Shown: positions 7,906 to 33,448 of the stretch, one piece after another | How the letters are laid out: each line of letters starts with the position of its first letter | How positions within the stretch are numbered: position 1 is the stretch's first letter | Source of the DNA: Alphaproteobacteria bacterium | Lineage (GTDB): Bacteria > Pseudomonadota > Alphaproteobacteria > Geminicoccales > Geminicoccaceae | Length of the DNA stretch: 64,000 nucleotides | Assembly (NCBI GenBank): GCA_027045875.1 | Contig: JALUAG010000076.1 | Location: forward strand, 62,001 to 126,000 | Direction: 5' to 3' | Program-made: the position numbers and the translations under genes | The notes under the pieces: generated by a model | Databases searched by the model: none | What the model saw: only the letters and a program-made list of their open reading frames with translations | Told to the model about the DNA's origin: nothing

Positions 7906-7918
7906 CCGGCTCACTGCC

Positions 7919-9418
7919 TCACTGCATGGCGAGTTGTTCGGCACCGGGGACGGTGCGTGCGAGGAGCTGGTCGATGGAGGCGGCCATGGGGTCGAGGAAG
8001 AACTGCGGGTAGATCCCCATCAGCAGCACGAGCACGACCAGCGGCGCGAAGGCGATCACCTCGTTGGCCCGCATGTCGCGGATGGCCTTGAGGGAATCCT
8101 TGGTGAGCGCGCCGAAGATCACCCGGCGATAGAGCCACAGCATGTAGGCGGCGCCGAGGATCATGCCGCTGGCGGCCAGCAGCGCGACCCAGCCGTTCAC
8201 GGAGAAGACGCCGACGATCACCAGGATCTCGCCGACGAAGCCCGAGGTGCCGGGCAGCCCCACCGAGGCCAGCATGAACAGCATGAACACGGTGGCGTAG
8301 ACCGGCATGCGCTCGGCGAGGCCGCCGTAGGCCGCGATCTCGCGGCTGTGGATGCGGTCGTAGACGACGCCCACGACCATGAACAGGGCGGCCGAGACCA
8401 GCCCGTGGGACAGCATCATGATGATGCTGCCGGCGATCCCGAGGGCGTTCGGGGTGAAGATGCCGATGGTGACGATGCCCATGTGCGCCACCGAACTGTA
8501 GGCGATGAGCTTCTTCATGTCGGTCTGCGCCAGCGCCACCAGGGAGGTGTAGATGATGGCGATCACCGACAGGGCGAAGACGAGCGGCGCGAAATACTCC
8601 GAGGCCTCGGGCAGCATCGGCAGCGAGAAGCGGAGAAAGGCGTAGCCGCCCACCTTCAGCAGGATGCCGGCGAGTACCACCGAACCGGCGGTGGGCGCCT
8701 CCACATGGGCGTCCGGCAGCCAGGTGTGGAACGGCCACATGGGCATCTTGACGGCGAAGGAGGCGAACATGGCGAGCCACAGCCAGCGCTGCAGCGAGGG
8801 ATCGAAATCGGCCGTCATCAGACGCGGGATCTCGGTGGTCCCGGTCTCGAAGTACATCACCAGAATGGCGATCAGGAACAGCACCGAGCCGGCCAGGGTG
8901 TAGAGGAAGAACTTGAAGGCGGCGTAGATGCGCCGCGGTCCGCCCCAGATGCCGATGATGAGGTACATCGGGATCAGGATGCCCTCGAAGAAGATGTAGA
9001 AGAGGACGATGTCGAGGGCGACGAACACGCCGACCATCAGCGTGGTCATCACCAGAAAGGCGATCATGTACTCCTTCACCCGCTCCTGCACCGAATGCCA
9101 GGAGCCGATGATGCAGATCAGGGTGAGCAGGGTGGAAAGGAGGACGAACCACAGGCTGATGCCGTCGACGCCGACGTAGTAGTTGACGCCGAGCCCCAGG
9201 AGCCAGGGGCTCTTCTCCACCATCTGGAAGCCCGGCTGGGCGGGATCGAAATTGGCCCAGACGAGGATCGACAGCAGAAAGGTGACGAGCGCGGTCCACA
9301 GCGCCACGCTGCGGCTGTTCTGGGCCACGATCTCGGGTTCGCCGCGGATGAAGAGGATGAAGGCGGCGCCCACCAGCGGCAGGAAGGTGACGAGGGAAAG
9401 AAGAGGCCAGTCGCTCAC
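7919..9418 (-). CDS. nuoM: NADH-quinone oxidoreductase subunit M
   Basis: Second antiporter-like proton-pumping subunit of complex I. The 499-residue product is highly hydrophobic and carries the family stretches SYSSVAHMG and [13 protein letters not shown], plus [19 protein letters not shown]. The start is GTG at 9418, a few bases after the nuoL stop. The length is normal. Confidence 0.97.
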
Positions 9419-9424
9419 GAGACC

Positions 9425-11347
9425 CTATCCCCGCAGGATGAACAGATACCAGCTCAGCAGCACGACGAGGCCGATCAGCATGGCGAAGGCGTAGTGGTAG
9501 ACGTAGCCCGTCTGCAGCCGGATCGCCCGCCGCGCCGAGGCCAGGGTCACCGCCGCCACCCCGTCGGGCCCGAACCGGTCGATCACCCCGAGATCGAAGC
9601 CCCGCCACAGGAACCGCCCGAAGGCGAGGGCCGGGCGCACGAACAGGGCGTCGTAGAGCTCGTCGAAATACCACTTGTGGGCAAGGAAGGTGTAGACGGG
9701 CCGCAGCGCCGCGACCAGGCGGTCGGGAAGGCCCGGCACCGCGATGTAGAACAGCCAGGCGAGGCCGAGGCCGAGGATCAGCGCCCCGAGCGGCGCGTAT
9801 TTCACGAGCGCCGGCACCGTCTCGATCTCCTCGAGCACCGTGTTGATGGGAGCGGTGAAGATGGCGCCGCTCCAGAACTCGCCCTCCGGTGCGATCAGCA
9901 CGAGACCGAACCAGCCGGCGAGGATGGCGCCTGCGGCCAGGAACAGGAGCGGCACCGTCATCACCGGTGGGCTCTCGTGGATGTGCGCCTGCACCTCGCG
10001 GCTCGCACGGCATTCGCCGTGGAAGGTCAGGAACATGAGCCGTCCGGAATAGAAGGCGGTCAGCACCGCCGCCGCCAGCAGAAGCCAGAAGGCGTAGCCG
10101 GCAAAGGCGTTCCCCGACACCCAGGCGGCCTCGATGATGGCGTCCTTGGAGAAGAAGCCGGCGGTGCCCGGAAAGCCGACGAGCGCCAGGGTGCCGATCC
10201 ACATGACGGCGTAGGTGATCGGCAGCTTGCGCCAGATGCCGCCCATCCGGCGCATGTCCTGCTCGTCCGACATGGCGTGGATGACCGACCCCGCACCCAG
10301 GAACAGGAGCGCCTTGAAGAAGGCGTGGGTGTAGAGGTGGAAGATGCCGGCGGCGTAGGCGCCCACACCGGCGGCGGCGAACATGTAGCCGAGCTGGGAA
10401 CAGGTGGAATAGGCGATCACCCGCTTGATGTCGTTCTGCACGAGCCCGACGGTGGCGGCGAAGAGGGCGGTGGAGGCGCCGATGAAGGTCACGAGCGCGA
10501 GGGCCGTGGGCGCGAACTCGTAGAGGGGCGAGAAGCGGGCCACCAGGAAGACGCCGGCGGTGACCATGGTGGCGGCGTGGATGAGCGCGGAGACCGGCGT
10601 CGGGCCCTCCATGGCGTCGGGCAGCCAGGTGTGGAGGCCGAGCTGGGCCGATTTGCCCATGGCGCCGATGAACAGCAGGATGCCGATCAGCGTCAGGGTG
10701 TCGAAGGAGGCGCCGAAGACGAACAGCTCCGTGTCGGCGAGCTTCGCCGTGTTGGCGAAGATGACGTCGTACTGGATGCTGTCGAACACGAACCAGGTGG
10801 CGGCGATGCCGAGCGCGAGACCGAAATCGCCCACCCGGTTGACGATGAAGGCCTTGATGGCGGCGGCACAGGCCGAGGGGCGGGTGTACCAGAAGCCGAT
10901 CAGCAGATAGGAGGCGACGCCGACCCCCTCCCAGCCGAAGTAGAGCTGGAGGAGGTTGTCGGAGGTCACCAGCATCAGCATGGCGAAGGTGAAGAAGGAG
11001 AGATAGGCGAAGAAGCGCGGGATGCTCGCGTCGTGTGCCATGTAGCCGATGGAGTAGACGTGGATGAGGAAGCTGATGCAGCTCACCACGAACATCATGA
11101 TCACGGAGAGCGCATCGATCCGGAGGCTCCATTCGGCGACGAAGCTGTCCACCGCCATCCAGGTGAAGAGCGGCACCTTGAAGGGTTCCTCGCCCAGGGT
11201 CGCGAGCGCGATGATGCTGGCGAGAGCGGAGACGCCCATCAGCCCGCAGGTGACGAGCTGGGAGGCCCGGTCGCCGATCAGGCGGCCGAACAGGCCGGCG
11301 ATGACGGCGCCCAGGATCGGCGAGAAGACGAGGAGGACGTACAGCAT
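9425..11347 (-). CDS. nuoL: NADH-quinone oxidoreductase subunit L
   Basis: Largest antiporter-like subunit, with the lateral helix that couples the proton channels of complex I. The 640-residue product has [17 protein letters not shown] near residue 135, [20 protein letters not shown] and [19 protein letters not shown]-terminal region after about residue 500 extends as the lateral helix and anchor helix. The ATG at 11347 is two bases after the nuoK stop. Confidence 0.97.
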
Positions 11348-11349
11348 CC

Positions 11350-11658
11350 TCAGCCCTTCATCAGGTTGATGTCCTCGACCTCGATGCTACCGCGGTTGCG
11401 GAAGTAGACGAGGACGATGGCGAGGCCGATGGCCGCCTCGGCGGCGGCCACGGTGAGCACGAAGATGGCGAAGATCTGGCCGGCGAGATCGCCCAGATAG
11501 GCGGAGAAGGCGACGAAGTTGATATTGACCGCCAGGAGCAGGAGCTCGATCGCCATCAGGATGACGATCACGTTCTTGCGGTTGACGAAGATCCCGAACA
11601 CGCCGATCGTGAACAGGATCGCCGCCAGGGTCAGATAGTGGGAAAGCGGAACCGGCAC
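11350..11658 (-). CDS. nuoK: NADH-quinone oxidoreductase subunit K
   Basis: Small membrane subunit of complex I (102 residues, three transmembrane helices). The two membrane glutamates needed for proton translocation are visible in [14 protein letters not shown] and [10 protein letters not shown]. It starts with GTG at 11658, supported by GGAGGA eight bases upstream. Confidence 0.97.
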
Positions 11659-11671
11659 TCCGGGATCCTCC

Positions 11672-12280
11672 TCAAATCCCCGTCCGCGGCGGAACCTTGC
11701 GGACCTCGAGGGTCTCGCTCCGCCGCCGCCGCACCTGGCGCCCGATGTCCTGCCGCTTGGCGTCGGGGCGGTGCCGCATGGTGAGGGTCATGGCACCGAT
11801 CATCGCCACCAGGAGAACGATGCCGGCGGCCTGGAAGAGATAGAAGTAGTCGGTGTAGAGCAGCCGACCGATGGCCTCGGTGTTGGTGGCCCCGCCGTCG
11901 GCGGCGACCCCCGCCGCCGCACCCAGCGCCGGCTCCAGGGCCATGCTGCCGAAGACGAGCCCGAGCTCCACCAGCAGGATGAGCCCCACGAGCGCCCCCA
12001 CCGGCAGATAGTGCAGAAAGCCCTCCCGGAGCTGGACGAAGTTGATGTCCAGCATCATCACCACGAAAAGGAACAGTACCGCCACCGCGCCGACGTAGAC
12101 GACCACGAGCAGCATGCCGAGGAACTCGGCGCCCAGCAGGATGAACAGCCCGGCCGAGTTGAAGAAGGCGAGAATGAGGAACAGCACCGAGTGGACCGGA
12201 TTCCTGGCGGCGATCACCATCACCGCCGCCGCCACCGTGACGAAGGCCAGGAGATAGAAGACGAGCTGGGCGAGGATCAT
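11672..12280 (-). CDS. nuoJ: NADH-quinone oxidoreductase subunit J
   Basis: Membrane subunit of complex I next to NuoK (202 residues, five helices). It has [19 protein letters not shown] and [18 protein letters not shown], the latter covering the helix that undergoes the pi-bulge transition. A hydrophilic loop around 125-145 is rich in Ala and Gly. The C-terminus is basic ([13 protein letters not shown]). Confidence 0.96.
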
Positions 12281-12328: not shown

Positions 12329-12814
12329 TCAACGGTAGGGCGCATCGGCCTCGAGCCTCATGGCGATTTCCCGTTCCCAGCGCTCGCCGTTCTCGAGGAG
12401 CTTCTCCTTGGTGTAGAAGAGCTCCTCCCGCGTCTCGGCGGCGAACTCGAAGTTCGGCCCCTCGACGATGGCGTCCACCGGGCAGGCCTCCTCGCAGAAG
12501 CCGCAGTAGATGCATTTCGTCATGTCGATGTCGTAGCGGGTGGTGCGCCGGCTGCCGTCGGGCCGCGGTTCGCTCTCGATGGTGATCGCCTGGGCGGGGC
12601 AGATGGCCTCGCACAGCTTGCAGGCGATGCAGCGCTCCTCGCCGTTGGGGTAGCGTCTGAGCGCGTGCTCGCCGCGGAAACGCGGCGACAGCGGCCCCTT
12701 CTCGTAGGGATAGTTGAGGGTCACCTTGCGCCGGAACAGGTAGCGGAGCGTCAAGGAGAAACCCTTGACGAGCTCCTCCCAGAGAATGGTCCGTGCGAGC
12801 TGGTCGACCTGCAC
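12329..12814 (-). CDS. nuoI: NADH-quinone oxidoreductase subunit I
   Basis: Peripheral-arm ferredoxin-like subunit holding clusters N6a and N6b. The 161-residue product has two complete 4Fe-4S motifs, [12 protein letters not shown] and [12 protein letters not shown], and [18 protein letters not shown] just before them. The GTG at 12814 is supported by a strong GGAGGAG ribosome-binding site. The gap of 48 bases to nuoJ is one of the larger ones in the operon. Confidence 0.97.
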
Positions 12815-12839: not shown

Positions 12840-13853
12840 TCAGCCCGGCACCAGATCGAACGCCACCAGCACGCCGGCGGTCAGCACCAGCCAGCCGAAG
12901 GAGATCGGCAGCAGCACCTTCCAGCCGAGACGCATGAGCTGGTCGTAGCGGTAGCGGGGCAGGGTCGCCCGTGCCCAGATGTAGACGAACAGGACCGCGC
13001 AGATCTTGAGGATGAACCACAGCGGTCCCGGGATCCAAGTGAAGGGCGCCACATCGAAGGGCGGCAGCCAGCCGCCGAGGAAGAGGATGGTGGCCATCGC
13101 GCTCATCAGGATCATGTTGGCGTACTCGCCGAGGAAGAAGAGCGCGAAGGTCATCGAGGAATATTCGACGTTGTAGCCGGTAACGAGGCTCGCCTCGTCC
13201 TCCGGCAGGTCGAAGGGCAGCCGGTTGGTCTCGGCGAGGATCGAGACCAGGAAGATCATGAACATCGGGAAGTGCCAGATCACGTACCACCCCTGCTCCG
13301 CCTGGGCGCGCACGATGTCCGACAGGTTGAGGGATCCGGCGGTGAGCAGCACGCTGATGATGATCATCCCCATGGCGATCTCGTAGGAGATCATCTGGGC
13401 CGAGGAGCGCAGCGCGCCGAGGAAGGCGTAGCGCGAGTTGGAGGCCCAGCCGGCCATGATGATGCCGTAGACGCCGAGCGAGCTGACCGCGAACAGGTAG
13501 AGGATGCCGACGTTGATGTCGGCCAGCACGAGCCCGTCGCCGAAGGGAATGACGGCCCAGCCGATGAGCGCCAGGATGAAGGTCAGCATGGGGGCGATCA
13601 CGAACACGCCCTTGTTGGCGCGGCTCGGGATCACCGTTTCCTTGAAGAACAGCTTGACCCCGTCGGCCAGCGGCTGGAGCAGCCCGTAGGGCCCCACGAA
13701 CATCGGCCCCTGGCGGAGCTGCATGCCGCCGATGACCTTGCGCTCGGCGTAGGTCAGATAGGCCACCGCGACGAGCAGCGGCACGATGATGGCGAGCGTG
13801 TAGACCACCAGCAGGATGAGCGGCCAGATGGTGCCCCAGAAGATCTCAGCCAT
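12840..13853 (-). CDS. nuoH: NADH-quinone oxidoreductase subunit H
   Basis: Membrane subunit of complex I that forms much of the quinone-binding chamber. The 337-residue product has [17 protein letters not shown] and [15 protein letters not shown] near the N-terminus, [20 protein letters not shown] with the acidic quinone-site loop, and NVEYSSM. The ATG at 13853 overlaps the end of nuoG by eight bases. Confidence 0.97.
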
Positions 13854-15912
13854 GGGTTCCCGTCGCCTTCTCGGTAAGCGGCCGCAGGATCTCGCGGCTG
13901 CACTGCCGCATCACCTCGGATGCGCGCGCGATGGGGTTGGTGAGGTAGAAATCCTCGACCGGCGAGGCGAAGGGCGCCTTGGCGAGCCGCCCCCGCTTGC
14001 CGAACTTCCCCCATTCGGCCGGTGTCACCGTGTCGATCCGCGCGAGATGGGGCGCGAGCTCGGCCATCCGGGCGCGCACCGCGAAGATGGTGTCCAGGGG
14101 CACGGTGCGGCCGATTGCCTCCGAGGCCGCCCGCAGGATCTTCCAGTCCTCGCGCGCCTCGCCGGGCGGGAAGACGGCGAGCCGTCCGTGCTGCGGCCGA
14201 CCCTCGAGATTGACCCAGGTGGCGTTCTTCTCGGTGTAGGCGGCGCCGGGCAGGATCAGATCGGCGATCGGCGCCGCGCGGTCGCCGTGATGGCCCTGGT
14301 AGACGACGAAGGCGTTGGTGAGGCGAGAGACGTCGATTTCGTCGGCGCCCAAGAGCCAGACGAGCTCGATCTCGCCCGCCTCGACGCCTTCCAGAATGCC
14401 GGCCAGATCGCGCCCCCCCTCGCCCGGCAGCAGGCCGAGATCGAGCCCCGCCACGCGCCCGGCCGCGGTGTGCAGCAGGTTGTAGCCGTTCCAGTCCTCC
14501 TGCACGAGACCGAAACGCTCGGCGATGCGATGGGCGAGGGCCAGCACCGCCGCCCCGTCCTCGCGGGCCACGGCGCCGGCGCCGAGCACCAGCATCGGCC
14601 GTTCGGCCCGCTCGAGGGCCTCGCAGATCTCGTGCTTGCCCTCGGCCACCGCCCGCAGGGTCTCGGGCCCCTCGCCGATGTCCTCCACCGGATAGGTCAG
14701 GTCGAAGAGCGCGCCGACGCGGGCCACCCGGAAGCCGCCCATGCGCCAGCGCTTGCGCAGACGGGCGTTGACGAGCGGCGCCTCCCAGCGCGGATTGGTG
14801 CCGACCAGCAGACAGAAATCGGCCCGCTCGATGCCCGCGATGGTGGTGTTGAAGAGATACTCCGCCCGTACCCGGCCCTCGATCCGGGCGCCGTCCTGGC
14901 GGCAGTCGAGGTGCGGGCAGCCCAGCCGCTCGGCCAGCTCCCGCACCAGCACCATGCTCTCGGCATCCACCAGATCGCCCACGACGAAGGCCATGCGCTC
15001 GCCGGGAAGCGCCGCCATGCGGTCGGCCAGGCTGCGGAAGGCCTCGCGCCAGCTCGCCTCGACGAGCCGGCCGTCGCGCCGGACCATGGGCACGTCGAGC
15101 CGGCGGTACTTGAGCCCGTCGTAGGCGAAACGGCTCTTGTCGGAGATCCACTCCTCGTTGACGTCCTCGTGCAGGCGCGGAAGGATCCGCATCACCTCGT
15201 TGCCGCGGGCGTCGACGCGGATGTTGGAGCCCACCGCGTCCATGACGTCGACGGATTCCGTCTTCCGGAGCTCCCAAGTACGGGCGCGGTACTGGTAGGG
15301 CTTGGAATTGAGGGCGCCCACCGGACACAGGTCGATGATGTTGCCCTGCAGCTCGGAATGCAGCGCCTGCTCGATGTAGTTGGTGATCTCCATGTGCTCG
15401 CCCCGCCAGCAGCCCCCGAGCTCCGGCACCCCGGCGATCTCGGTCAGGAAGCGGATGCAGCGGGTGCAATGGATGCAGCGCGTCATGTGGGTGGCGAGGA
15501 GCGGCCCCAGATACTTGTCGGTCACCGCGCGCTTGTTCTCGCGGAAGCGGGAATGGTCGGGGCCGTAGAACAGGGTGAGGTCCTGCAGGTCGCACTCCCC
15601 GCCCTGATCGCAGATCGGGCAGTCGAGGGGGTGGTTGACGAGCAGGAACTCGAGCACCCCCTTGCGCGCCTTGTGGACGAGCGGGCTGTCGGTGTGGACC
15701 ACCATCCCGTCCGCTGCCGGCATGGCGCAGGAGGCCACCGGCTTCGGCGACTTCTCGATCTCGACGAGGCACATGCGGCAGTTGCCGGCGATGTTCAGTC
15801 GCGGATGGTAGCAGAAATGCGGGATCTCCTTGCCGGCGAGCTCGCAGGCCTGGAAGACCGTGTAGCCGGCCGGGACCTCGATCTCTTCGCCGTCGATGAC
15901 GAGTTTCGGCAT
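13846..15912 (-). CDS. nuoG: NADH-quinone oxidoreductase subunit G
   Basis: Largest peripheral-arm subunit, carrying several Fe-S clusters on the electron path from NADH. In the 688-residue product the N-terminal 2Fe-2S ligands are Cys34, Cys45, Cys48 and Cys62. They are followed by the [14 protein letters not shown] and [11 protein letters not shown] cluster motifs, and then a molybdopterin-oxidoreductase-like domain that binds no cofactor in complex I. The length matches the shorter alphaproteobacterial form rather than the E. coli form of about 900 residues. It overlaps nuoH by eight bases. Confidence 0.97.
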
Positions 15913-15940: not shown

Positions 15941-17230
15941 TCAGGCCGCCGCCCGGTCGCCGCCGCTCTTGCGCGCCACGATCCGCCGCTCGAGCTCGTC
16001 GCGGAAGTGGCGGATCAGCCCCTGCACCGGCCAGGCGGCCGCATCGCCCAGGGCGCAGATGGTGTGGCCCTCGATCTGCTTGGTGACGTCCCACAGAAGG
16101 TCGATCTCGGCGATGTCGGCGTCGCCCTCGGCGAGGCGGGTGACCATCCGCCACAGCCAGCCCGTGCCCTCGCGGCAGGGGGTGCACTGCCCGCAGGACT
16201 CGTGCATGTAGAACTTGGACAGGCGCGCGATCGCCCGCACGATGTCGGTGGACTTGTCCATCACGATCACGCCTGCCGTGCCGAGCCCGCTCTGGGCCTC
16301 GCGCAGGCTGTCGAAATCCATCCGCACCGCCTCGCAGACCGATTTCGGGATGAGCGGCACCGAGGAGCCGCCGGGGATGATCGCCAGGAGATTGTCCCAG
16401 CCGCCGCGCACGCCCCCCGCATGCTTCTCGATCAGCGTCTTGAGGGGGATGCCCATCTCCTCCTCGACGGTGCAGGGCTGGTTCACGTGGCCCGAGATGC
16501 AGAAGATCTTGGTGCCGGTGTTGTTCTGCCGGCCGAGGCCGGCGAACCAGGCCGCGCCGCGGCGCAGGATGGTGGGAACGACGGCGATGGTCTCGACGTT
16601 GTTGACGGTGGTGGGGCGCCCGTAGAGGCCGACCGCCGCCGGGAAGGGCGGCTTCAGACGTGGCTGGCCCTTCTTGCCCTCGAGGCTCTCGAGCAGCCCC
16701 GTCTCCTCGCCGCAGATGTAGGCACCGGCGCCGCGGTGGAGGCGGATCTCGATGTCGTAGCCCGACTTGCAGGCGTCGCGGCCGACGAGCCCGGCCTCGT
16801 AGGCCTCGGCGATGGCCGCCTCCAGGATCTGCGCCTCGCGCACGAACTCGCCGCGGATGTAGATGTAGCAGTGGGTGCAGCCCATGGCCGCCGAGGCGAG
16901 GACACAGCCCTCGATCAGCTTGTGCGGCTCGTTGCGGATGATCTCCCGGTCCTTGCAGGTGCCGGGCTCGGATTCGTCGGCGTTGACGACGAGATAGACC
17001 GGACCGCCGTCGCTCTGCTTGGGCATGAAGGACCATTTGAGGCCGGTCGGGAAGCCGGCCCCGCCCCGTCCCCGCAGGCCCGAATCCTTGATCTCCTGGA
17101 CGAGCGCCTCGCGCCCCCGGGCGATCAGCTCCTTGGTGCCGTCCCAGTCGCCGCGCTTCCTGGCCGCCTCGAGGCTCCAGGGCTGCTCGCCGTAGAGATT
17201 GGTGAAGATGCGGTCCCGGTCGTGGAGCAT
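15941..17230 (-). CDS. nuoF: NADH-quinone oxidoreductase subunit F
   Basis: NADH- and FMN-binding subunit of complex I with cluster N3. The 429-residue product has [19 protein letters not shown] (FMN/NADH site), [20 protein letters not shown], and the N3 motif [11 protein letters not shown] with a fourth cysteine further on (TICALGD). The ATG at 17230 ([14 protein letters not shown]) matches the family N-terminus and is five bases after the nuoE stop; the longer open frame upstream overlaps nuoE and is not coding. Confidence 0.97.
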
Positions 17231-17235
17231 GCCCG

Positions 17236-17847
17236 TCACTTCTCCTCGAACAGCAGCGTGGTCTTGCCGCCGGCCGGCATCGAGCCCTTGCGTCCGGACT
17301 GGGGGCCGGGCTTCGGCCGCTCGCCGCGCTGGAGCGCCTCGAGCACCGCCCTCGTGCGCTCGTAGTCGAGATCCTCGTAATAGTCCTCGTCCACCCACAG
17401 CACCGGCGCGTTGGCGCAGGCGCCGAGGCATTCGAACTCGCGCAGATAGAAGCGCCCGTCCGGCGTGGTCTCGCCGATCTCCACCCCGAGCACCTCCTTG
17501 CAGGCCCGCACCACCTCGTCCGAACCGCACAGCCAGCAGGGGGTGGTGGTGCAGACCCGCACCTGCACCCGGCCCACCGGCTCGGTGTTGAACATGTCGT
17601 AGAAGGTGGCGACCTCGTAGACGTTGATGCGCGGCATGCCCAGAAGCTCGGCCACATGGTCGAGCGCCGCCCGCGGCAGCCAGCCGCCGTGCTGTTCCTG
17701 GGCGAGATGCAGCAGCGGCAGAACCGCGCTCGCCCTCCGGTCCTCGGGATAGCGGGCGAGGATGTCGCGGATCCTGGCCCGGTTCTCCTCGCTGAAGGCG
17801 AAGGTCTCGACGTCCGGAGCCATGCCCTCGCCGACGCTGTCGCTCAT
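17236..17847 (-). CDS. nuoE: NADH-quinone oxidoreductase subunit E
   Basis: Thioredoxin-fold subunit of complex I carrying the 2Fe-2S cluster N1a. The 203-residue product contains [11 protein letters not shown] and the second ligand pair in [10 protein letters not shown], preceded by the helical [20 protein letters not shown] stretch. It has a Pro/Gly/Lys-rich C-terminal tail. Its ATG overlaps the nuoD stop (ATGA). Confidence 0.96.
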
Positions 17848-19022
17848 CTGTCGATCTCCCCGAAGACCACGTCGAGGGCACCGATGATGGCCACGATGTC
17901 GGCGAGCTGGTGCCCCCGCCCCATCATTTCCAGCGCCTGGAGATGGACGTAGGCCGGGGAGCGGATCTTGCAGCGGTAGGGCTTGTTGGTGCCGTCGGAT
18001 ACGAGATAGACGGCGAACTCGCCCTTGGGGTTCTCGGTCGCCACGTAGACCTCGCCCGCGGGCACGTGGATGCCCTCCGTGTAGAGTTTGAAATGGTGAA
18101 TGAGCGCCTCCATCGAGCGCTTCATCTCGGCGCGGGGTGGCGGCGTCACCTTGTGGTTCGGGGTGCGCACCGGCCCCTCGGGCATCTGCTCGATGCACTG
18201 GCGGATGATCTTGAGCGATTCGCGCATCTCCTGCATGCGCACGAGATAGCGGTCGTAGCAGTCGCCGTGCCTGCCCACCGGGATGTCGAAATCGAGCCGG
18301 TCGTAGACCTCGTAGGGCTGCGCCTTCCGAAGGTCCCAGGCCACCCCCGAGGCCCGCAGCATGGGCCCCGAGAAGCCCCAGGCGAGGGCGTCCTCGGCCG
18401 AGACCACGCCGATGTCCACCGTGCGCTGCTTGAAGATCCGGTTCTCGTTGAGCAGCGTCTCGATGTCGGCCATGAAATCCTCGAACTGGTCGCACCATTC
18501 GAGGATGCGCTCCTCCATGCCGGCGGGCATGTCCCTAGCCACCCCGCCGAAGCGGAAGTAGTTGGCGTGCATCCGCGCCCCCGACACCTCCTCGTAGAAC
18601 TCCATCAGCTTCTCGCGCTGCTCGAAGCCCCAGAGGAGCGGCGTCATCGCCCCGATGTCGAGGGCCATCGTGGTGATGTTGAGGAGGTGGTTGAGGATGC
18701 GGGTGATCTCGCAGAACAGCACCCGGATGTACTGGGCGCGGATCGGCACCTCGACGCCCAGCAGCTTCTCCACCGCCAGCACGAAGGAGTGCTCCTGGCA
18801 CATCATGGAGACGTAGTCGAGGCGATCGAAGTAGGGGATGCTCTGGAGATAGGGCCGGTATTCGATCAGCTTCTCGGTACCGCGATGCAGGAGCCCGATG
18901 TGGGGGTCGGCCCGTTCCACGACCTCGCCGTCCATCTCCAGCACGAGGCGCAGCACGCCGTGCGCCGCCGGATGCTGGGGGCCGAAATTGACGCTGAAGG
19001 TCTTGATCTCGGTCTCGACCAT
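17844..19022 (-). CDS. nuoD: NADH-quinone oxidoreductase subunit D
   Basis: 49-kDa-type subunit that, with NuoB, lines the quinone reduction site. The 392-residue product has [18 protein letters not shown] with the conserved quinone-site histidine region, [11 protein letters not shown], and [16 protein letters not shown]. An in-frame GTG directly before the ATG (19025) is an equally possible start. The 73-base gap to nuoC is the largest in the operon and holds a short GC hairpin (ACCCC/GGGGT near 19057-19072). Confidence 0.96.
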
Positions 19023-19095
19023 CACTCCGCTTCCAGGCTCGCCCGCGCACCACCCCGCCGCCGGGGTACCGTCTCGCGGGCCAAGATTCGATCCC

Positions 19096-19719
19096 CTAGC
19101 CCTGCGCCTTTTCGTCGCCCGGCAGCAGCCCGCTTCCTTCCCAGGGCGAGAGAAAGTCGAAGCTGCGGAAGTCCTGCCGCAGCTTCACCGGTTCGTAGAC
19201 CACGCGCTTCTGCTCGTCGTCGTAGCGCAGCTCGACATAGCCGGTGAGCGGGAAGTCCTTCCGCAGCGGATGACCGTCGAAGCCGTAGTCCGACAGCAGC
19301 CGCCGCAGGTCCGGGTGATCGGCGAACAGGATGCCGTACATGTCCCAGGCCTCGCGCTCGAACCAGCCGGCGGTGGGAAAGACCGAGACCACCGAGGGCA
19401 CCGGGGTGAACTCGTCGGTCCTGACCTTCACCCGGATGCGCTGGTTGTGGTGCAGCGAAAGGAGATGGTAGACGACGTCGAAGCGCTGTTCCCGCTCCGG
19501 CCAGTCGACGCCGCAGAGGTCCACGAGCTCCTTGAACAGGAGACCGGGATCGTCGCGCAGGAAGGTGAGCACGCGCACGATCTGCGATGCCGGCACGAGG
19601 ATCGTGAGCTCGCCGTGGGCGATCCGGCGCTCGATCAGCGTCTCGCCGAGTGCCGGCTCGATGATCGCCAGCATCTCCTCGAGACTGGCGATCATCTCCG
19701 GTCCGGTGTCGACGGTCAT
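19096..19719 (-). CDS. nuoC: NADH-quinone oxidoreductase subunit C
   Basis: 30-kDa-type peripheral subunit of complex I. The 207-residue product has the signature [20 protein letters not shown] and [18 protein letters not shown], ending with [20 protein letters not shown]. It is separate from nuoD here (not fused as in E. coli). The ATG at 19719 lies 13 bases after the nuoB stop. Confidence 0.97.
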
Positions 19720-19732
19720 CGCTTCCGTCTCC

Positions 19733-20272
19733 TCAGCGCTCGAGCGTGCCGGTGCGGCGGATCTTCTTCTGCAGCTGCAGGATGCCGTAGACCAGTGCCT
19801 CCGCCGTCGGCGGACAGCCCGGAACGTAGATGTCGACCGGCACGATGCGGTCGCAGCCGCGCACCACCGAATAGGAGAAGTGGTAGTAGCCGCCGCCGTT
19901 GGCGCAGCTGCCCATGGAGATGACGTAGCGCGGCTCGGCCATCTGGTCGTAGACCTTGCGCAGCGCCGGCGCCATCTTGTTGCAAAGGGTGCCGGCCACG
20001 ATCATCACGTCGCTCTGGCGCGGGCTCGGCCGGAACACGACGCCGAAACGGTCGAGGTCGTAGCGGCTGGCGGCGGCGTGCATCATCTCGACGGCACAGC
20101 AGGCGAGGCCGAAGGTCATCGGCCACAGGCTGCCCGAGCGCGCCCAGTTGACGAGATCGTTGAAGGTGGTGACGAAGAAGCCCTTGTCCCTGAGACCCTC
20201 GCCCACTTCGGCCAGGAGATCGCGGCGGCTCGCGGCGGCGGCGGTCGCCTCGCGGAGGCTGCTCACTCCCAT
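19733..20272 (-). CDS. nuoB: NADH-quinone oxidoreductase subunit B
   Basis: Carries cluster N2, the last Fe-S centre before quinone. The 179-residue product has the tandem cysteines in [11 protein letters not shown], then [10 protein letters not shown] and [12 protein letters not shown] for the remaining ligands. The ATG at 20272 gives the normal N-terminus and overlaps the end of nuoA by 10 bases; longer in-frame extensions are shadow sequence. Confidence 0.97.
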
Positions 20273-20628
20273 TCGAGCCCTCCCTTCTTCCACTCGTAGA
20301 CGAAGCCGACGGTGAGCACGAGCAGGAACACCATCATCGACCAGAAGCCGAACATGCCGATGTCGCCCAGACTCACCGCCCAGGGGAACAGGAAGGCCAC
20401 CTCGAGATCGAAGATGATGAACAGGATGGCGACCAGATAGAACCGCACGTCGAACCGGCCGCGGGCGTCGTCGAAGGGCTCGAAGCCGCATTCGTAGGCC
20501 GACAGTTTCTCCCGTTCGGGGTGCTGGGGGGCGATCACCATCGAGGCGAGGACGATGATCGCCGCCAGCGCGACGGCGATGCCGAGAAAGACGAGGATCG
20601 GCAGATACTCGGCGAGATAGGCCTGCAT
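20263..20628 (-). CDS. nuoA: NADH-quinone oxidoreductase subunit A
   Basis: Small membrane subunit of complex I (121 residues, three helices). It has the quinone-site loop with [20 protein letters not shown], followed by [21 protein letters not shown], both diagnostic. First gene of the nuo operon; a candidate promoter lies about 70 bases upstream. Confidence 0.97.
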
Positions 20629-20697
20629 GGGTCGGTCCCTTCACCGCGGCCGGACGGCCGTACGCTCCCGGCGGCACCCCGGCGGTCGCCGCGGCGC

Positions 20698-20727
20698 AAC
20701 ATAGGCGCAAAGCCGGCCGCTTGCCAA
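20698..20727 (-). promoter_or_regulatory. candidate nuo operon promoter
   Basis: Minus strand TTGGCA (20727-20722), 18-base spacer, TATGTT (20703-20698). The predicted start near 20691 would give a leader of about 63 bases before nuoA. No clear regulator site was seen beside it. Confidence 0.45.
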
Positions 20728-20847
20728 GCGCCACCGGACCGCAGAAATGTCACAGCCGCGTCGCGTGACGAACGTGCGAGCCGAAACGGCCGCAACCACC
20801 GGTAGCGCGCCGCGCGCCGCGTCTCGGTACGCGTTCGGGAAATCGGA

Positions 20848-20924
<77 letters not shown>

Positions 20925-20938
20925 TCGGGAACGAGGCG

Positions 20939-20967
20939 CATCTAATGGCCGCCACGGGGCCTGTCAA
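20939..20967 (-). promoter_or_regulatory. tRNA-Asp promoter inside rquA 3' end
   Basis: Minus strand TTGACA (20967-20962), 17-base spacer, TAGATG (20944-20939), 15 bases before the tRNA 5' end. The promoter lies within the last codons of the upstream gene, and its -10 element contains that gene's TAG stop. Confidence 0.6.
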
Positions 20968-21745
20968 GGGCGGCGGCCGCTCCCTCCGCCCGGTCCGCGG
21001 ACGCCGTCCGCCGGGCCACCACCATCTGGTAGAGGCCGCCGAAACAGGTGGTCTTGGACCAGCGGAAGCGGTCCGCCGTGGCGGGCGGTGCGAGCTCCCG
21101 CAATTCGCAGCGCCAGAGTTCCTCCGCGAACGGTTCGAGGCGCGCGAACAGGGTACGCATCGGCCAGCGCAGGGGATGCAGGGGACGCGGGCGATGATAG
21201 TCTACGAAGATCGCCTTGCCGCCCCGCCGCACCGCTCCGAGAAGGGCGGCCATGACCCGGCGCTTCCAGTCGGCGGGCAGCTCGTGCAGCAGGAAGAAGC
21301 ACAGCACGGCATCGTAACGGGCCGCCGTCGGCCGGGCGGCGTCGCGGCAGGCGAGCCGGCAGTTGGGAAAGCGCGCGAGCTTGCGCCGGCAGTTTTCGAC
21401 CTGGATCGGAGCCACGTCCCGGACCTCGAGCCGTCCCGCGGGTCCGAGCCGCTCCGCGATGCGGCGGGAAAAGCCACCGTACACGCAGGCCGGCTGGAGG
21501 ACCCGCGCACCGGGCGCCAGTTCGCGCGCCACCATCCGCCGCAGCCGCTCCATCTGGCCCCACAGGACGAGGGAGGCGACGAGATCGTGATCGAGTAGCG
21601 CGACCGAGGCCGGCCGCAGATAGGCCCAGCCGTACGTCTCTTCGAGATAGGCGGGAAGGATCGGCCCGTCCCGCGCGTCGTCGCCGGCGGCTGTCGGCGC
21701 CCGCTCGAGCTCCGAGACCGGCGGCCGCATCGCCGTTCCGTGCAC
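20942..21745 (-). CDS. rquA: RquA-type rhodoquinone biosynthesis methyltransferase-fold enzyme
   Basis: RquA converts ubiquinone to rhodoquinone, the low-potential quinone used for anaerobic fumarate reduction; known RquA is a class I methyltransferase-fold protein using SAM as an amino donor. The 267-residue product has the features I associate with RquA: LPAYLEETYGWAYLRPASV near residue 29, a VLWGQMERLRR stretch, LQPACVYGGFSRR in place of a standard SAM motif I, then FFLLHELP, FVDYHRPRPLHPLRWPM and LEPFAEELWR. The GTG at 21745 is supported by GGGGAGGG upstream. It lies 18 bases before tRNA-Asp and next to the nuo operon, with an FNR-like box upstream. A related UbiE/COQ5-type methyltransferase of other function is the main alternative. 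Confidence 0.78.
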   Translation of the reverse strand: MHGTAMRPPVSELERAPTAAGDDARDGPILPAYLEETYGWAYLRPASVALLDHDLVASLVLWGQMERLRRMVARELAPGARVLQPACVYGGFSRRIAERLGPAGRLEVRDVAPIQVENCRRKLARFPNCRLACRDAARPTAARYDAVLCFFLLHELPADWKRRVMAALLGAVRRGGKAIFVDYHRPRPLHPLRWPMRTLFARLEPFAEELWRCELRELAPPATADRFRWSKTTCFGGLYQMVVARRTASADRAEGAAAALDRPRGGH

Positions 21746-21856
21746 GTGTCCCTCCCCTGCGGCGCCGCGGCGCGCGCCCGCGACGGTCGACAGCCGCGGC
21801 CGGCGTGGGCCCGGCGACCACCCGCAGAGGCTCGCCCGAAGGCACCGGCCTCGCCC

Positions 21857-21870
21857 TGATCCAGGTCAAG
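21857..21870 (-). promoter_or_regulatory. FNR/FixK-like box upstream of rquA
   Basis: Minus strand TTGACCTGGATCAG, matching the FNR/CRP-family anaerobic consensus TTGAT-N4-ATCAA at 8 of 10 fixed positions (one mismatch per half). It lies in the 155-base gap between clpA and rquA, centred about 118 bases before the rquA GTG. No convincing -10 element was found at the spacing expected for a class II site. Confidence 0.5.
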
Positions 21871-21900
21871 GCGCGCGCCCGTGTCGCAGCGCGCCGGGGG

Positions 21901-24216
21901 TCAGATGGCCGGTTCGGAGATGTCCGTCTTCTCGACCGTCTTCTCGCCGCGCCTGCCGCCCCTGGGCTCGACGGGGCTGAAGCGGAAGGCCGGCCTGTCG
22001 TTCTCGATGGTGATCAGCACCTTGCCGCCCTTGGCGAGCTGGCCGAACAGCAGCTCGTCGGCGAGCGGACGCTTGATGTGCTCCTGGATCACCCGCGCGA
22101 GCGGCCGCGCCCCGTAAAGGGGATCGTAGCCGCGCTCGGCGAGCCAGCCGCGGGCCGCCTCGTCGACCTCGATGTGGACCCGCCGGTCGGCGAGCTGGGC
22201 CGCGAGCTCGCGCACGAACTTGTCGACGATCGCCCGCACGATCTCCGGCGACAGTGCCCGGAAGGGGATGATGGCGTCGAGGCGGTTGCGGAATTCGGGC
22301 GTGAACAGCCGCTTGATGGCCTCGCTGTCGTCCCCCTCGCGGGTGGAGCGACCGAAGCCCATCGCCGGCTTGCTCATGTCGGCGGCGCCGGCGTTGGTGG
22401 TCATGATCAGGATGACGTTGCGGAAGTCCACCGTCTTGCCGTTGTTGTCGGTGAGCTTTCCGTAATCCATCACCTGCAGGAGAATGTTGAAGACGTCCGG
22501 ATGGGCCTTCTCGATCTCGTCCAGCAGCAGCACCGCATGCGGATGCTGGTCGATGGCGTCGGTCAAAAGCCCGCCCTGGTCGAACCCGACGTAGCCGGGG
22601 GGGGCGCCGATCAGCCGTGAAACGGCATGGCGCTCCATGTACTCCGACATGTCGAAGCGCACGAGCTCGATCGCCATGATGCCGGCGAGCTGGCGTGCCA
22701 CTTCGGTCTTGCCGACTCCGGTCGGTCCCGAGAACAGGTAGCAGCCGATCGGCTTCTGCGGATCCCGGAGGCCCGCCCGGCTGAGCTTGATGGCGCTCGC
22801 GAGCGCGTCGATCGCCTGATCCTGGCCGAACACCACCGCCTTGAGATCGGCATCGAGGGTCTTGAGGGCCGCCTTGTCGCGGTGGTTGACGGCCTTGACC
22901 GGCACCCGCGCGATCTTGGAGACGATGTCCTCGACATCCTTGACGCCGATGGTCTTGCGCCGCAGGTGCTCGGGCCGCAGCATCTGCGCCGCCCCCACCT
23001 CGTCGATGATGTCGATCGCCTTGTCCGGCAGCTTGCGGTCGTGGATGTAGCGCACCGACAGCGCCACCGCCGCCTTGAGGGCGGCGTTGGTGTACTTGAC
23101 GCCGTGATGCTGCTCGAAGCTCGGCCGCAGCCCCTCGAGGATCTTGACCGCCTCCTCCTCGCTCGGTTCCGGGATGTCGATCTTCTGGAAGCGGCGCACC
23201 AGCGCCCGGTCCTTCTCGAAGTAGTTGCGGAACTCCTTGTAGGTGGTGGAGCCCACGCAGCGCAGGGTGCCGCTGGCCAGGGCCGGCTTCAGGATGTTGG
23301 AGGCATCGAGCGAGCCGCCGCTGGTCGCTCCGGCGCCGATCACGGTGTGGATCTCGTCGATGAACAGGATCGCGTCCTTGTCCGACTCGAGCTCCTGGAT
23401 CACCGCCTTGAGCCGTTCCTCGAAATCGCCGCGATAGCGGGTTCCGGCCAGGAGCGCCCCCATGTCGAGAGCGTAGATCACGGCGCTCTTGAGAACCTCG
23501 GGCACCTCGCCCCTGACGATCCGGAGCGCCAGCCCCTCGGCGATCGCCGTCTTGCCGACACCGGGATCGCCCACGAACAGCGGGTTGTTCTTGGAACGCC
23601 GGCACAGGATCTGGATCGTGCGCTCGATCTCCCGCTCGCGGCCGATCAGCACGTCCACCTTGCCCGCCCGCGCCTTGGCGTTGAGGTTGGTGCAGTAGGC
23701 GTTGAGGGCCTCGCCGCCCTCCCGCTTCTCCTCGCCGCCGCTCTCGTCGGCGCCGCGCACCCGTCGTTCCTCGCTCATGCCCGGTTTCTTGGCGATCCCG
23801 TGGGCGATGTAGTTGACGGCGTCCAGCCGCGACATGTGCTGTTCCTGGAGGAAATGGACGGCGTGGGATTCGCGCTCCGAGAACAGTGCCACCAGCACGT
23901 TGGCGCCGGTCACCTCGGAGCGTCCCGAGGACTGCACGTGGATGGCCGCGCGCTGGATCACCCGCTGGAAACCGGCGGTGGGCTTGGCGTCCACCACCCC
24001 GTCGACCACGAGGCCGGACAGTTCGTGGTCGAGGAAGTCGGTGAGCTGGGCCCGCAGGCGGTCGATCTCCACCGCGCAGGCGCGCAGCACCGCCACCGCG
24101 TCCTGGTCCTCGGTGAGGGCCAGCAGCAGATGCTCGAGGGTCGCGTATTCGTGCTGCCGGGCATTGGCGAGCGCCAGCGCCCGCCGCAGCGTCTTCTCGA
24201 GTGTGCGAGAAAGCAT
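21901..24216 (-). CDS. clpA: ATP-dependent Clp protease ATP-binding subunit ClpA
   Basis: AAA+ unfoldase that feeds ClpP and works with the adaptor ClpS. The 771-residue product has the double Clp N-domain (residues 1-145; [18 protein letters not shown]), AAA module 1 with Walker [11 protein letters not shown] and [13 protein letters not shown], and AAA module 2 with [15 protein letters not shown] and [12 protein letters not shown]. There is no long middle domain, so it is ClpA and not ClpB. The ATG at 24216 has GGAGG at the right distance; the ATG at 24222 and GTG at 24225 are too close to it. It follows clpS by 69 bases. Confidence 0.97.
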
Positions 24217-24285
24217 GGGCATCACCTCCGACCCTGGAACATCGTGCCGATCGCCGTCACCGTCTCCACCGACTTCCCGTTCACC

Positions 24286-31688: not shown

Positions 31689-32729
31689 TCAGGAGACGGC
31701 GACCGTGTGTGCCGGTGCCGTCCGCGCGGCCCGGCGCGCGAGGAAGGCGTACCAGTCGACGAAGCGTTCGCTCGACCGCGCCAGCTGGGCGAAACAGGCC
31801 GCGAGAAACCGTTGCAGCCGCACCGCCCCTTCCTCCCGGAAGCGCCGCAGGTCCACCCGCCAGTTCCCCGCCAGACGGGCGAGGGTGAAATCCGGCGCGA
31901 GCCCGTAGACGAAGGGCACCGCTTCCCCGCGCTCGGTCACGATCAGCGGGTTGACCACCTCCGAAAGGGGGGTGCCCGCGGCGAGACCGTCGGCATGGGC
32001 CGGATCCAGCAGCCGATAGGCGTCCGCCGCCGCGCACAGGGCGCTTCGCGGATGGAGATCCACCTGCACCGCCACCCGCCCGGGCAGACGGTCCTCGAAC
32101 AGCCGACCGAGCAGGTAGAGGCGCGCCCGCGCCTCCTCGTCGAGGCCCAGTTCGGCCTCCACCTCCGCCCCCCGCCCGGTAGGGTCGAGGGGGTGGAGCT
32201 GGAGCAGCGAGGCCCCTTTCCGGCAGGCGAAGTCGGCGAGCCAGGGGAGGTGCGGGATCCCGGCCCGGGTCACGGTATGGATGACGCCGAAGGCGAGCTC
32301 CGCCTCCCGCAGCCGGTCGAGGGCCGCTTCGGCGCGCGCGAAGGCGCCGTTTCGGGCGCGCAGGCGGTCGTGCAGTTCCGGCGGGCCGTCGATGCTGACC
32401 GCCACCACCCCGATGCGCGGGGCCAGCGCCCCGAGGAGTCGTCCCCGGAGCAGCAGGCCGTTGGTGGTGAGGTTGACCCGATACCCCATCGCCAGGAGCG
32501 CGTCGGTGACCGCGAGCAGGGGCCGGTAGAGGAGCGGCTCGCCGCCCGAGAAGCTGACCGTCTCGTAGCCCTCCTCGCGCATCGCGGCGAAGAAGGGGAG
32601 CACCTCCTCCGCCGCCAGCCCGCCGCGTTTCCCGGGACCGGACCCGCTGTAGCAGTGGCGGCAGCGCAGGTTGCAGGCGAGCGTCGGGTGGAACTGGATC
32701 ACCCGACGCCCGAGGAAACCCGATCTCAC
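31689..32729 (-). CDS. radical SAM protein
   Basis: A 346-residue radical SAM enzyme. The cluster motif is CNLRCRHCYSG (CX3CX2C) near residue 19, followed by YETVSFSGGEPLLY (SAM-binding GGEP), LTTNGLLL and VAVSIDGPPELHD. The C-terminal third has only scattered cysteines (FACRKG, ALCAAAD, AACFAQL) and no clear SPASM or twitch cluster set. The substrate is unknown. It starts with GTG at 32729, overlapping the stop of the 111-residue upstream gene (GTGA), so the two are translationally coupled and probably act together. Confidence 0.8.
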   Translation of the reverse strand: MRSGFLGRRVIQFHPTLACNLRCRHCYSGSGPGKRGGLAAEEVLPFFAAMREEGYETVSFSGGEPLLYRPLLAVTDALLAMGYRVNLTTNGLLLRGRLLGALAPRIGVVAVSIDGPPELHDRLRARNGAFARAEAALDRLREAELAFGVIHTVTRAGIPHLPWLADFACRKGASLLQLHPLDPTGRGAEVEAELGLDEEARARLYLLGRLFEDRLPGRVAVQVDLHPRSALCAAADAYRLLDPAHADGLAAGTPLSEVVNPLIVTERGEAVPFVYGLAPDFTLARLAGNWRVDLRRFREEGAVRLQRFLAACFAQLARSSERFVDWYAFLARRAARTAPAHTVAVS

Positions 32730-33061
32730 CGCTGGCTCTCGATCAGCCCCGGCGAGGCCCCCGTCCGGGCATCCGAGATCACCTGCACCCGCCAGAGCTC
32801 GGGGACCGGAATGCCGAGCGGGAACACTTCCAGACGATCGGCCACCCGGAGCCGGTCGACGAGCTCGCGCAGGAAGCCGCCGATACGGCCCCTGGGCACC
32901 ACGTAGTCGAGGCAGATGCCGTAGATGCACCAGTCCACACGGGCCGGCGCGATGCGCAGGTCCTGGATGCGATCGGCGAGATCGAACACCGCCTTCTTGT
33001 CGAGCTGGCCGATGGCGATGGCCCGTTCGAGATGGGCTCCCAGCGTCTTGTCGTGGCTCAC
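32726..33061 (-). CDS. unknown 111-residue partner of radical SAM enzyme
   Basis: I do not recognise this family. The product has a helical N-terminal part (HLERAIAIGQLDKKAVFDLADRI), a central WCIYGICLDYVVPRG with two cysteines five residues apart, and a C-terminal FPLGIPVPELWRVQVISD. There is no signal peptide or membrane segment. The GTG at 33061 is strongly supported by AAGGAGGAG five or six bases upstream. It could be a substrate, chaperone or regulator of the coupled radical SAM enzyme; it is larger and less leader-like than most RiPP precursors. Confidence 0.72.
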   Translation of the reverse strand: MSHDKTLGAHLERAIAIGQLDKKAVFDLADRIQDLRIAPARVDWCIYGICLDYVVPRGRIGGFLRELVDRLRVADRLEVFPLGIPVPELWRVQVISDARTGASPGLIESQR

Positions 33062-33371
33062 CTGATCTCCTCCTTATCGGTTGGTCGGGTTGGTGCCGCC
33101 GCCGTGTTCCGTCACCCGCCGGCGACGACACGGAGGAGCATCGTTTCCTTATAGCCATCGAACGGCGCCGCGTCCCGTGATTTCGGCCACGAAAGCGCCG
33201 GAAGCCGGCATGCCGCCGGCCGGACGAGGGCCGATGGTGGAGGATCGGCGGGCTCGACGGGCGTCACCTGCGCCCGGCCCACTACGGAGTCGCGTTTCGC
33301 GTCTCGCCCGACGATGGGGGAGGGTGCCACGACCTCGGCCGCGTCGCCCGTGTTATCGATTTCGGTGGTAG
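33062..33371. other. 310-base region without a gene
   Basis: It lies between the radical SAM operon start and tRNA-Arg. A TATAAG element on the minus strand (33153-33148) could be the -10 of the operon promoter, but no good -35 is present. I see no gene, repeat or hairpin of note. A 9-codon frame with start at 33141 is too short to support. Confidence 0.5.
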
Positions 33372-33448
33372 TGGCGCGCCCGGGAGGACTCGAACCCCCA
33401 ACCTTCTGATCCGTAGTCAGATGCTCTATCCGATTGAGCTACGGGCGC
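33372..33448 (-). tRNA. tRNA-Arg(ACG)
   Basis: A 77-base cloverleaf on the minus strand: acceptor GCGCCCG/CGGGCGC fully paired, D-arm GCTC/GAGC, anticodon stem TCTGA/TCAGA with loop CTACGGA and anticodon ACG (read as ICG after deamination), T-loop TTCGAGT, discriminator G, and encoded CCA at 33374-33372. Confidence 0.97.

Follow-up and report, generated by a model that had tools for sequence, protein, structure and literature searches.

A predicted rhodoquinone biosynthesis gene, rquA, upstream of and probably separate from the complex I operon in a genus of Geminicoccaceae

The 64,000-nucleotide stretch of DNA analysed here (the window) carries what sequence comparison identifies as a genuine rquA gene, next to a complete set of complex I genes. 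RquA converts ubiquinone (UQ) to rhodoquinone (RQ), an electron carrier for conditions of scarce oxygen, and the activity of the family is a transfer of an amino group onto UQ that depends on S-adenosylmethionine (SAM) and manganese. The explanation that we favor, with good confidence, is that this is a true rquA whose product would make RQ, that it would respond to oxygen together with ubiTUV and feed a chain from complex I through RQ to complex II, and that it is separate from nuo. Family membership, gene content, synteny and conserved sequence boxes come from tool-based analyses, and from these we infer catalysis (by way of the characterized Rhodospirillum rubrum enzyme), regulation, electron flow and the order of events.

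The open reading frame that a first-pass annotation had drawn at 20942-21745 was recovered with its 267 residues and lies on the minus strand, for which the annotation had given no entry. All four stretches that it had quoted as RquA-like (TYGWAYLRP, VLWGQMERLRR, ACVYGGFS and VDYHRPRPLHPLRW) occur in the translation, and its identification of an RquA-type enzyme agrees with a curated model, a tree and the conserved residues. The NCBIfam equivalog NF038261 (rhodoquin_RquA) matched the protein with 286.9 bits (E 1e-85, cut-off 175) over the whole model, positions 1-218 of 218. The protein was the sole match above this cut-off in its own genome, where three others reached 22-31 bits.

A class I SAM methyltransferase from some other quinone or natural-product pathway, merely similar to RquA, would also show the generic Methyltransf_25 domain that is the Pfam-type assignment of the window protein, and might likewise yield a predicted model nearest to assorted SAM methyltransferases. 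The model is weak, however (four sequences, mean pLDDT 63.1, pTM 0.64), and its Foldseek matches represent the SAM-methyltransferase fold in general, with yeast Coq5 among them; a sequence search for a solved RquA structure returned none (best E 0.0081). Against such an origin stand the full-length equivalog match far above its cut-off, a runner-up NCBIfam family with 29.5 bits against a cut-off of 180, and the nested position of the protein within RquA in the tree described below, with UbiE outside, so that we regard it as highly improbable.

Residue conservation points to an intact RquA. Of 59 homologous loci found, 58 were used for the count (L008, the frame-changed copy of the congener G016, was left out), and the list of positions with at least 90% conservation omitted 16 divergent rows (L037-L052), leaving 42 classical homologues. 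The window protein retains 54 of the 58 strongly conserved positions and departs from them at positions 57, 60, 64 and 174. SAM motif I is non-canonical (VLQPACVYGG, compared with LLDLAGGTGD in the UbiE of the same genome), and in its region Q84, A86, Y89 and G90 are found in 100% of the 42 homologues. The retained residues include D110 and D135 (100 and 98% conserved among the 42, respectively), Y38, W40, Y42, Q84, H154, E155, D182 and Y183. The YGG of the window protein (YGD in three relatives) was considered as a mark of a damaged site and rejected, as the position is outside the 58 conserved ones.

The RquA of R. rubrum (UniProt Q2RPC3, so named in PMC9814641) belongs to the same curated family and fold class and has an altered SAM motif I as well, in a host of a different lineage. 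PMC9814641 gives D118 and D143 as its SAM-site residues; D110 and D135 would correspond to these by a constant offset of 8, a match by position. UbiE/Coq5 proteins share the class I SAM-methyltransferase fold but differ in motif I and are separate in the tree. According to PMC13386864, one rquA of the class GWC2-55-46 produced no RQ in E. coli, so that sequence alone is no guarantee of activity. The window RquA is nevertheless real and probably works as an enzyme.

The tree against UbiE that the first-pass annotation had proposed was computed with 55 other RquA homologues and three outgroup rows, none of the rows being identified as R. rubrum. L008 was dropped from both this and a quicker tree, and L039, L051 and L052 were dropped from the careful tree for their long branches. 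The window protein falls within the RquA clade, and the UbiE and two other methyltransferases of its own genome split off outside (support 99/99). It pairs with the RquA of the congener G017 (100/99); these two group with the RquAs of two further Geminicoccaceae, G011 (GSL.Bin6, 55% identity to the window protein) and G027 (DLM2.Bin45, 51% identity), which belong to the same family (98/92), and the group of four is nested within an alphaproteobacterial RquA clade (95/90). These values should be read with the long outgroup branches in mind, and with the flagging of the window and G017 rows for odd letter composition. In the quicker tree the four were together at 87, not starred. Published work, too, describes RquA trees as scrambled and weakly supported (PMC5953543, PMC11707229).

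Occurrence of the gene is sparse. It was found in 5 of 31 genomes of the family, namely in all three members of the genus (G000, G016 and G017) and in G011 and G027; the order-level search covered the same 31 genomes. With a threshold of E 1e-30, an even sample of the class had matches in 25 of 385 genomes, 23 of them exceeding the cut-off, and a phylum sample had matches in 75 of 398, of which 61 exceeded it. Loci of 30 of these 75 genomes entered the trees from the phylum sample, and the other 45, including all those below the cut-off, were present only if another search had contributed them. A degenerate-pattern scan of genome contigs was tight and gave four rquA loci, the broad set being derived from the class and phylum searches. 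Among plasmid records there were four matches, all below 60% identity and none covering 80% of the query. Two side observations were made in these samples. One alphaproteobacterial genome (G083) has two RquA genes over the cut-off (L034 and L053), both in the RquA clade of the window. The boundary of RquA is blurred in group f188 of the phylum sample, where RquA-like proteins score about 155-186 bits and straddle the cut-off of 175.

Within the genus, rquA evolves faster than its neighbors. Between the window and G017, a Nei-Gojobori script gave dN 0.264 and dS 0.82 for rquA, as compared with dN 0.016 and dS 0.34 for clpA and dN 0.022 and dS 0.20 for nuoA. The dN/dS ratio was 0.32 for rquA versus 0.05-0.11 for clpA, nuoA, nuoC and nuoD; when the window and G017 were compared with G016 over the first part of rquA, it was about 0.41. 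The G016 copy (L010:4597-5500, contig 611) switches frame near codon 190 and carries the substitution Y42D at a residue that is invariant in the 58 others. Departures at the 58 conserved sites number 4 in the window, 3 in G017 and 14 in G016, the last figure being due in part to reading in the wrong frame past the frame change. The poor quality of the G016 assembly (660 contigs, 8% contamination) can hardly by itself account for the substitutions at conserved positions, and the copy is probably decaying. These rates and the lesions in G016 suggest that rquA evolves fast here, that some members may lose it, and that selection on it may be weak in this genus.

Taken further, the same data could mean that rquA is decaying or functionally relaxed throughout the genus and that the window copy, with its four changes at conserved sites and with raised dS, has little or no activity. 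The window copy is nevertheless a full-length open frame with 287 bits and the conserved sites described above, D110 and D135 included, its dN/dS is below 1, and the three species preserve an FNR-like box ahead of it, with 1 and 2 differences. We therefore hold decay or relaxation with such a loss of activity to be quite improbable and prefer a functional rquA.

The first-pass annotation had placed the gene beside a complete complex I operon, 300 bases from nuoA with only a tRNA-Asp between them. The operon is indeed complete (nuoA-N, 14 subunits in order and on one strand, ten assigned by NCBIfam, with nuoA under the cut-offs, and four by Pfam), and the spacing is 313 bases with the tRNA-Asp at 20848-20924 (Table 1). 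The gene upstream of rquA is presumably clpA, which we recognized from its sequence.

Table 1. Features of the rquA and nuo region, in window coordinates.
Feature	Coordinates	Strand	Basis or remark
clpA, upstream of rquA, outside the pathway	21901..24225	-	named from its sequence
FNR-like box TTGACCTGGATCAG, begins 124 bases ahead of rquA start codon	21856..21869	-	one mismatch to TTGAY-N4-RTCAA
rquA, 267 aa, GTG start at 21745	20942..21745	-	NCBIfam NF038261, tree, conserved positions
tRNA-Asp (gtc), between rquA and nuoA	20848..20924	-	ARAGORN
promoter-like site TTGGCA-18-TATGTT ahead of nuoA	20698..20727	-	consensus scan, alignment
nuoA	20263..20628	-	128.6 bits at best with NCBIfam subunit A models (cut-off 155, not reached)
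nuoB	19733..20299	-	NF005012 and TIGR01957 over cut-off
nuoC	19096..19719	-	NF004733 over cut-off
nuoD	17844..19025	-	NF004739 over cut-off
nuoE, start inferred inside longer open frame	17236..17853	-	Pfam PF01257
nuoF, start inferred	15941..17239	-	NF010120 over cut-off
nuoG	13846..15912	-	TIGR01973 over cut-off
nuoH	12840..13853	-	NF004745 over cut-off
nuoI	12329..12814	-	NF004539 over cut-off
nuoJ	11672..12280	-	NF005164 over cut-off
nuoK	11350..11658	-	NF004323 over cut-off
nuoL	9425-11347	-	Pfam PF00361, PF00662, PF06455
nuoM	7919-9418	-	Pfam PF00361; M vs N assigned by order
nuoN	6451-7944	-	Pfam PF00361; M vs N assigned by order

This arrangement could reflect a single transcription unit in which rquA and nuo are co-regulated by design. 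The two are on the same strand a short distance apart, no terminator-like site was found in 20500-22000, and many genomes have rquA close to genes for respiratory complexes (Stairs et al., PMC5953543, section 8), a report by which the closeness itself is not new. Comparison across the family speaks for two units instead. The order clpA-rquA-tRNA-Asp-nuoA is identical in the three members of the genus. A nuoA match was obtained in 26 genomes of the family; of the 23 loci from outside the genus, 18 have a tRNA-Asp upstream of nuoA, and none of these has an adjoining rquA. By tblastn, clpA and rquA matched only at L103-L105 among the 26 nuoA loci, and neither was met at the 23 others, in flanks of up to about 1.5 kb, some of which ended with the contig. 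The clpA-rquA pair upstream of tRNA-Asp-nuoA is thus special to this genus among the genomes examined, and since tRNA-Asp-nuoA is common in the family without rquA, nearness to nuo is no evidence of a joint operon. In addition, a conserved promoter-like block directly precedes nuoA in three species; the alignment places in it the sigma-70-like site of Table 1, and a consensus scan found one such site, compared with a mean of 0.0 in shuffles. A shared unit is in our judgment unlikely, given also the intervening tRNA-Asp. The two are probably transcribed separately, with rquA regulated on its own outside the nuo operon. As a separate observation in the window, a frame at 31689-33158 (minus strand) resembles a radical SAM protein (CNLRCRHCYS stretch) and adjoins a tRNA-Arg (33372-33448).

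Other members of the RquA clade have different surroundings. Unlike in the window, rquA of G011 is followed by an E. coli-type frdA and preceded by a START-type Polyketide_cyc gene, and in G027 rquA likewise has a START-domain gene ahead of it, with frdABCD located on a different contig. The START-type genes, which we take to be Coq10-like, are directly upstream of rquA at L011:5071-5604 (minus strand) in G011 and at L012:1126-2172 (minus strand) in G027, and their products are possible quinone-binding partners.

Evidence for the regulation of rquA comes from its putative FNR-like box. As the FNR consensus we take TTGAY-N4-RTCAA. The pattern TTGAY-N4-RTCA has a single match on the two strands of the 64 kb window, and this is the rquA box. 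Of all 13-mers in the clpA-rquA spacer, the first 13 bases of the box rank highest for conservation in the two congeners (1 and 2 differences); when the congener spacers were shuffled base by base 2000 times, no shuffle matched the conservation of this pre-chosen 13-mer. The stricter pattern was used because matches with two mismatches are scattered along the window (15 versus 4.38 expected). Elsewhere, FNR-like boxes ahead of rquA are no general rule. Among 60 rquA loci, 6 have one upstream with up to one mismatch and 3 have one downstream (1.76 expected), a weak overall enrichment, and the searched sequence preceding rquA of G011 and G027 contained none. Such a box occurs in 5 of 11 members of the tree clade of the window, a subset picked post hoc, and one of these five (L032) has a downstream box as well. 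A perfect TTGAY-N4-RTCAA box (TTGACCTCGGTCAA) precedes ubiT in the genome of the window, which also encodes a Crp/Fnr-family regulator (L129) with CX2CX7C near the N-terminus; its best model is FnrL, under the cut-off (191 of 300). FNR control has been reported for ubiTUV in PMC11707229, whose FNR statements, in the text available, concern those genes.

For a UQ supply, also without oxygen, the search covered UbiU, UbiT, UbiV and UbiE and found them all. UbiU, UbiT and UbiV exceed their cut-offs, their genes being adjacent, and a UbiE subfamily model is over its cut-off as well. A U32 pair of the UbiU/UbiV type was found in all five rquA-positive genomes of the family, whereas of the 26 rquA-negative ones three had such a pair and one a single match (Fisher p 0.0007 for 5/5 versus 4/26, uncorrected for kinship). 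This agrees with the ubiTUV-type association in 73 of 84 RquA genomes given in PMC11707229. Among the menaquinone markers, MenB over the cut-off was found in none of the five rquA-positive genomes (weak MenB-like matches occur in all five, the best with 152 bits against a cut-off of 342.7), and MqnA/D in none of them either, which suggests RQ as the only low-potential quinone within the reach of these searches.

The first-pass annotation had also advised looking for succinate dehydrogenase or fumarate reductase genes elsewhere in the genome. A canonical SdhA is over its cut-off, and contig C37 (L098:3724-8499, minus strand) holds a second complex II-like set (FeS subunit, two Sdh_cyt proteins and a flavoprotein) in one cluster with the alpha and beta subunits of a class I fumarase. 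Two SdhA/FrdA-like flavoproteins were found in this genome at E <= 1e-60, among the 40 of 54 candidates that were scored, and neither of them is an E. coli-type FrdA; in G011 and G027, FrdA is over its cut-off. The second flavoprotein reaches none of the family cut-offs compared, TfrA being the best (485.9 of 718). Flavoprotein matches with similar scores (235-252 bits) exist in all three genus members, and such matches exist in rquA-negative genomes too. The second complex II set beside fumarase would be the likely electron outlet. That it, in place of FrdABCD, is the RQ-linked fumarate reductase of the genus, in a single fumarase cluster forming a malate-to-succinate module that an FnrL-like regulator would co-induce with rquA and ubiTUV, is a tentative proposal, which as a whole we find rather doubtful. 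Of the terminal oxidases, a cbb3 heme-copper oxidase is over its cut-off, an aa3-like one is just under it on a partial sequence, and a third heme-copper oxidase had no family at the threshold used.

Together, these observations are consistent with the following course of events. As oxygen falls, an Fnr/FnrL-like regulator would induce ubiTUV, for an oxygen-independent UQ supply, and rquA. RquA would then swap a methoxy group of UQ for an amino group from SAM, using Mn2+, to form RQ. Complex I would reduce RQ, and RQH2 would be reoxidized by complex II acting as fumarate reductase, probably the second set beside class I fumarase. With oxygen present, UQ would serve together with the aa3-like and cbb3 oxidases. 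The nearness of rquA to nuo would come from its position, together with clpA, ahead of a tRNA-Asp-nuoA pair that is probably older, and the two would be transcribed separately. A genetic potential for RQ-linked anaerobic respiration is thus supported at the level of predicted gene content. The first-pass annotation had deduced that the organism can run such a respiration with the adjoining Nuo complex; RquA, complex I, UbiTUV, UbiE, the Fnr-like regulator, the second complex II-like set beside fumarase and the negative outcome for both menaquinone markers fit this, but the closeness of rquA to nuo does not serve as a sign of a joint operon, and of the two complex II flavoproteins found none is FrdA-type. 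Our literature search returned no report of RQ in Geminicoccaceae.

Three points are new, if modest: the conserved putative FNR-like box ahead of rquA, the probably genus-specific position of the gene upstream of what is probably an older tRNA-Asp-nuoA pair, and the non-canonical second complex II with fumarase as the putative electron outlet. The differing neighborhoods inside one rquA clade indicate that a gene can lie close to complex I without belonging to its operon. The conserved box offers a testable link from oxygen sensing to a switch from UQ to RQ, a kind of link that PMC11707229, in its available text, reports for ubiTUV and not for rquA. By genome content, one genus of Geminicoccaceae would join the sparsely spread bacteria with a capacity for rhodoquinone.
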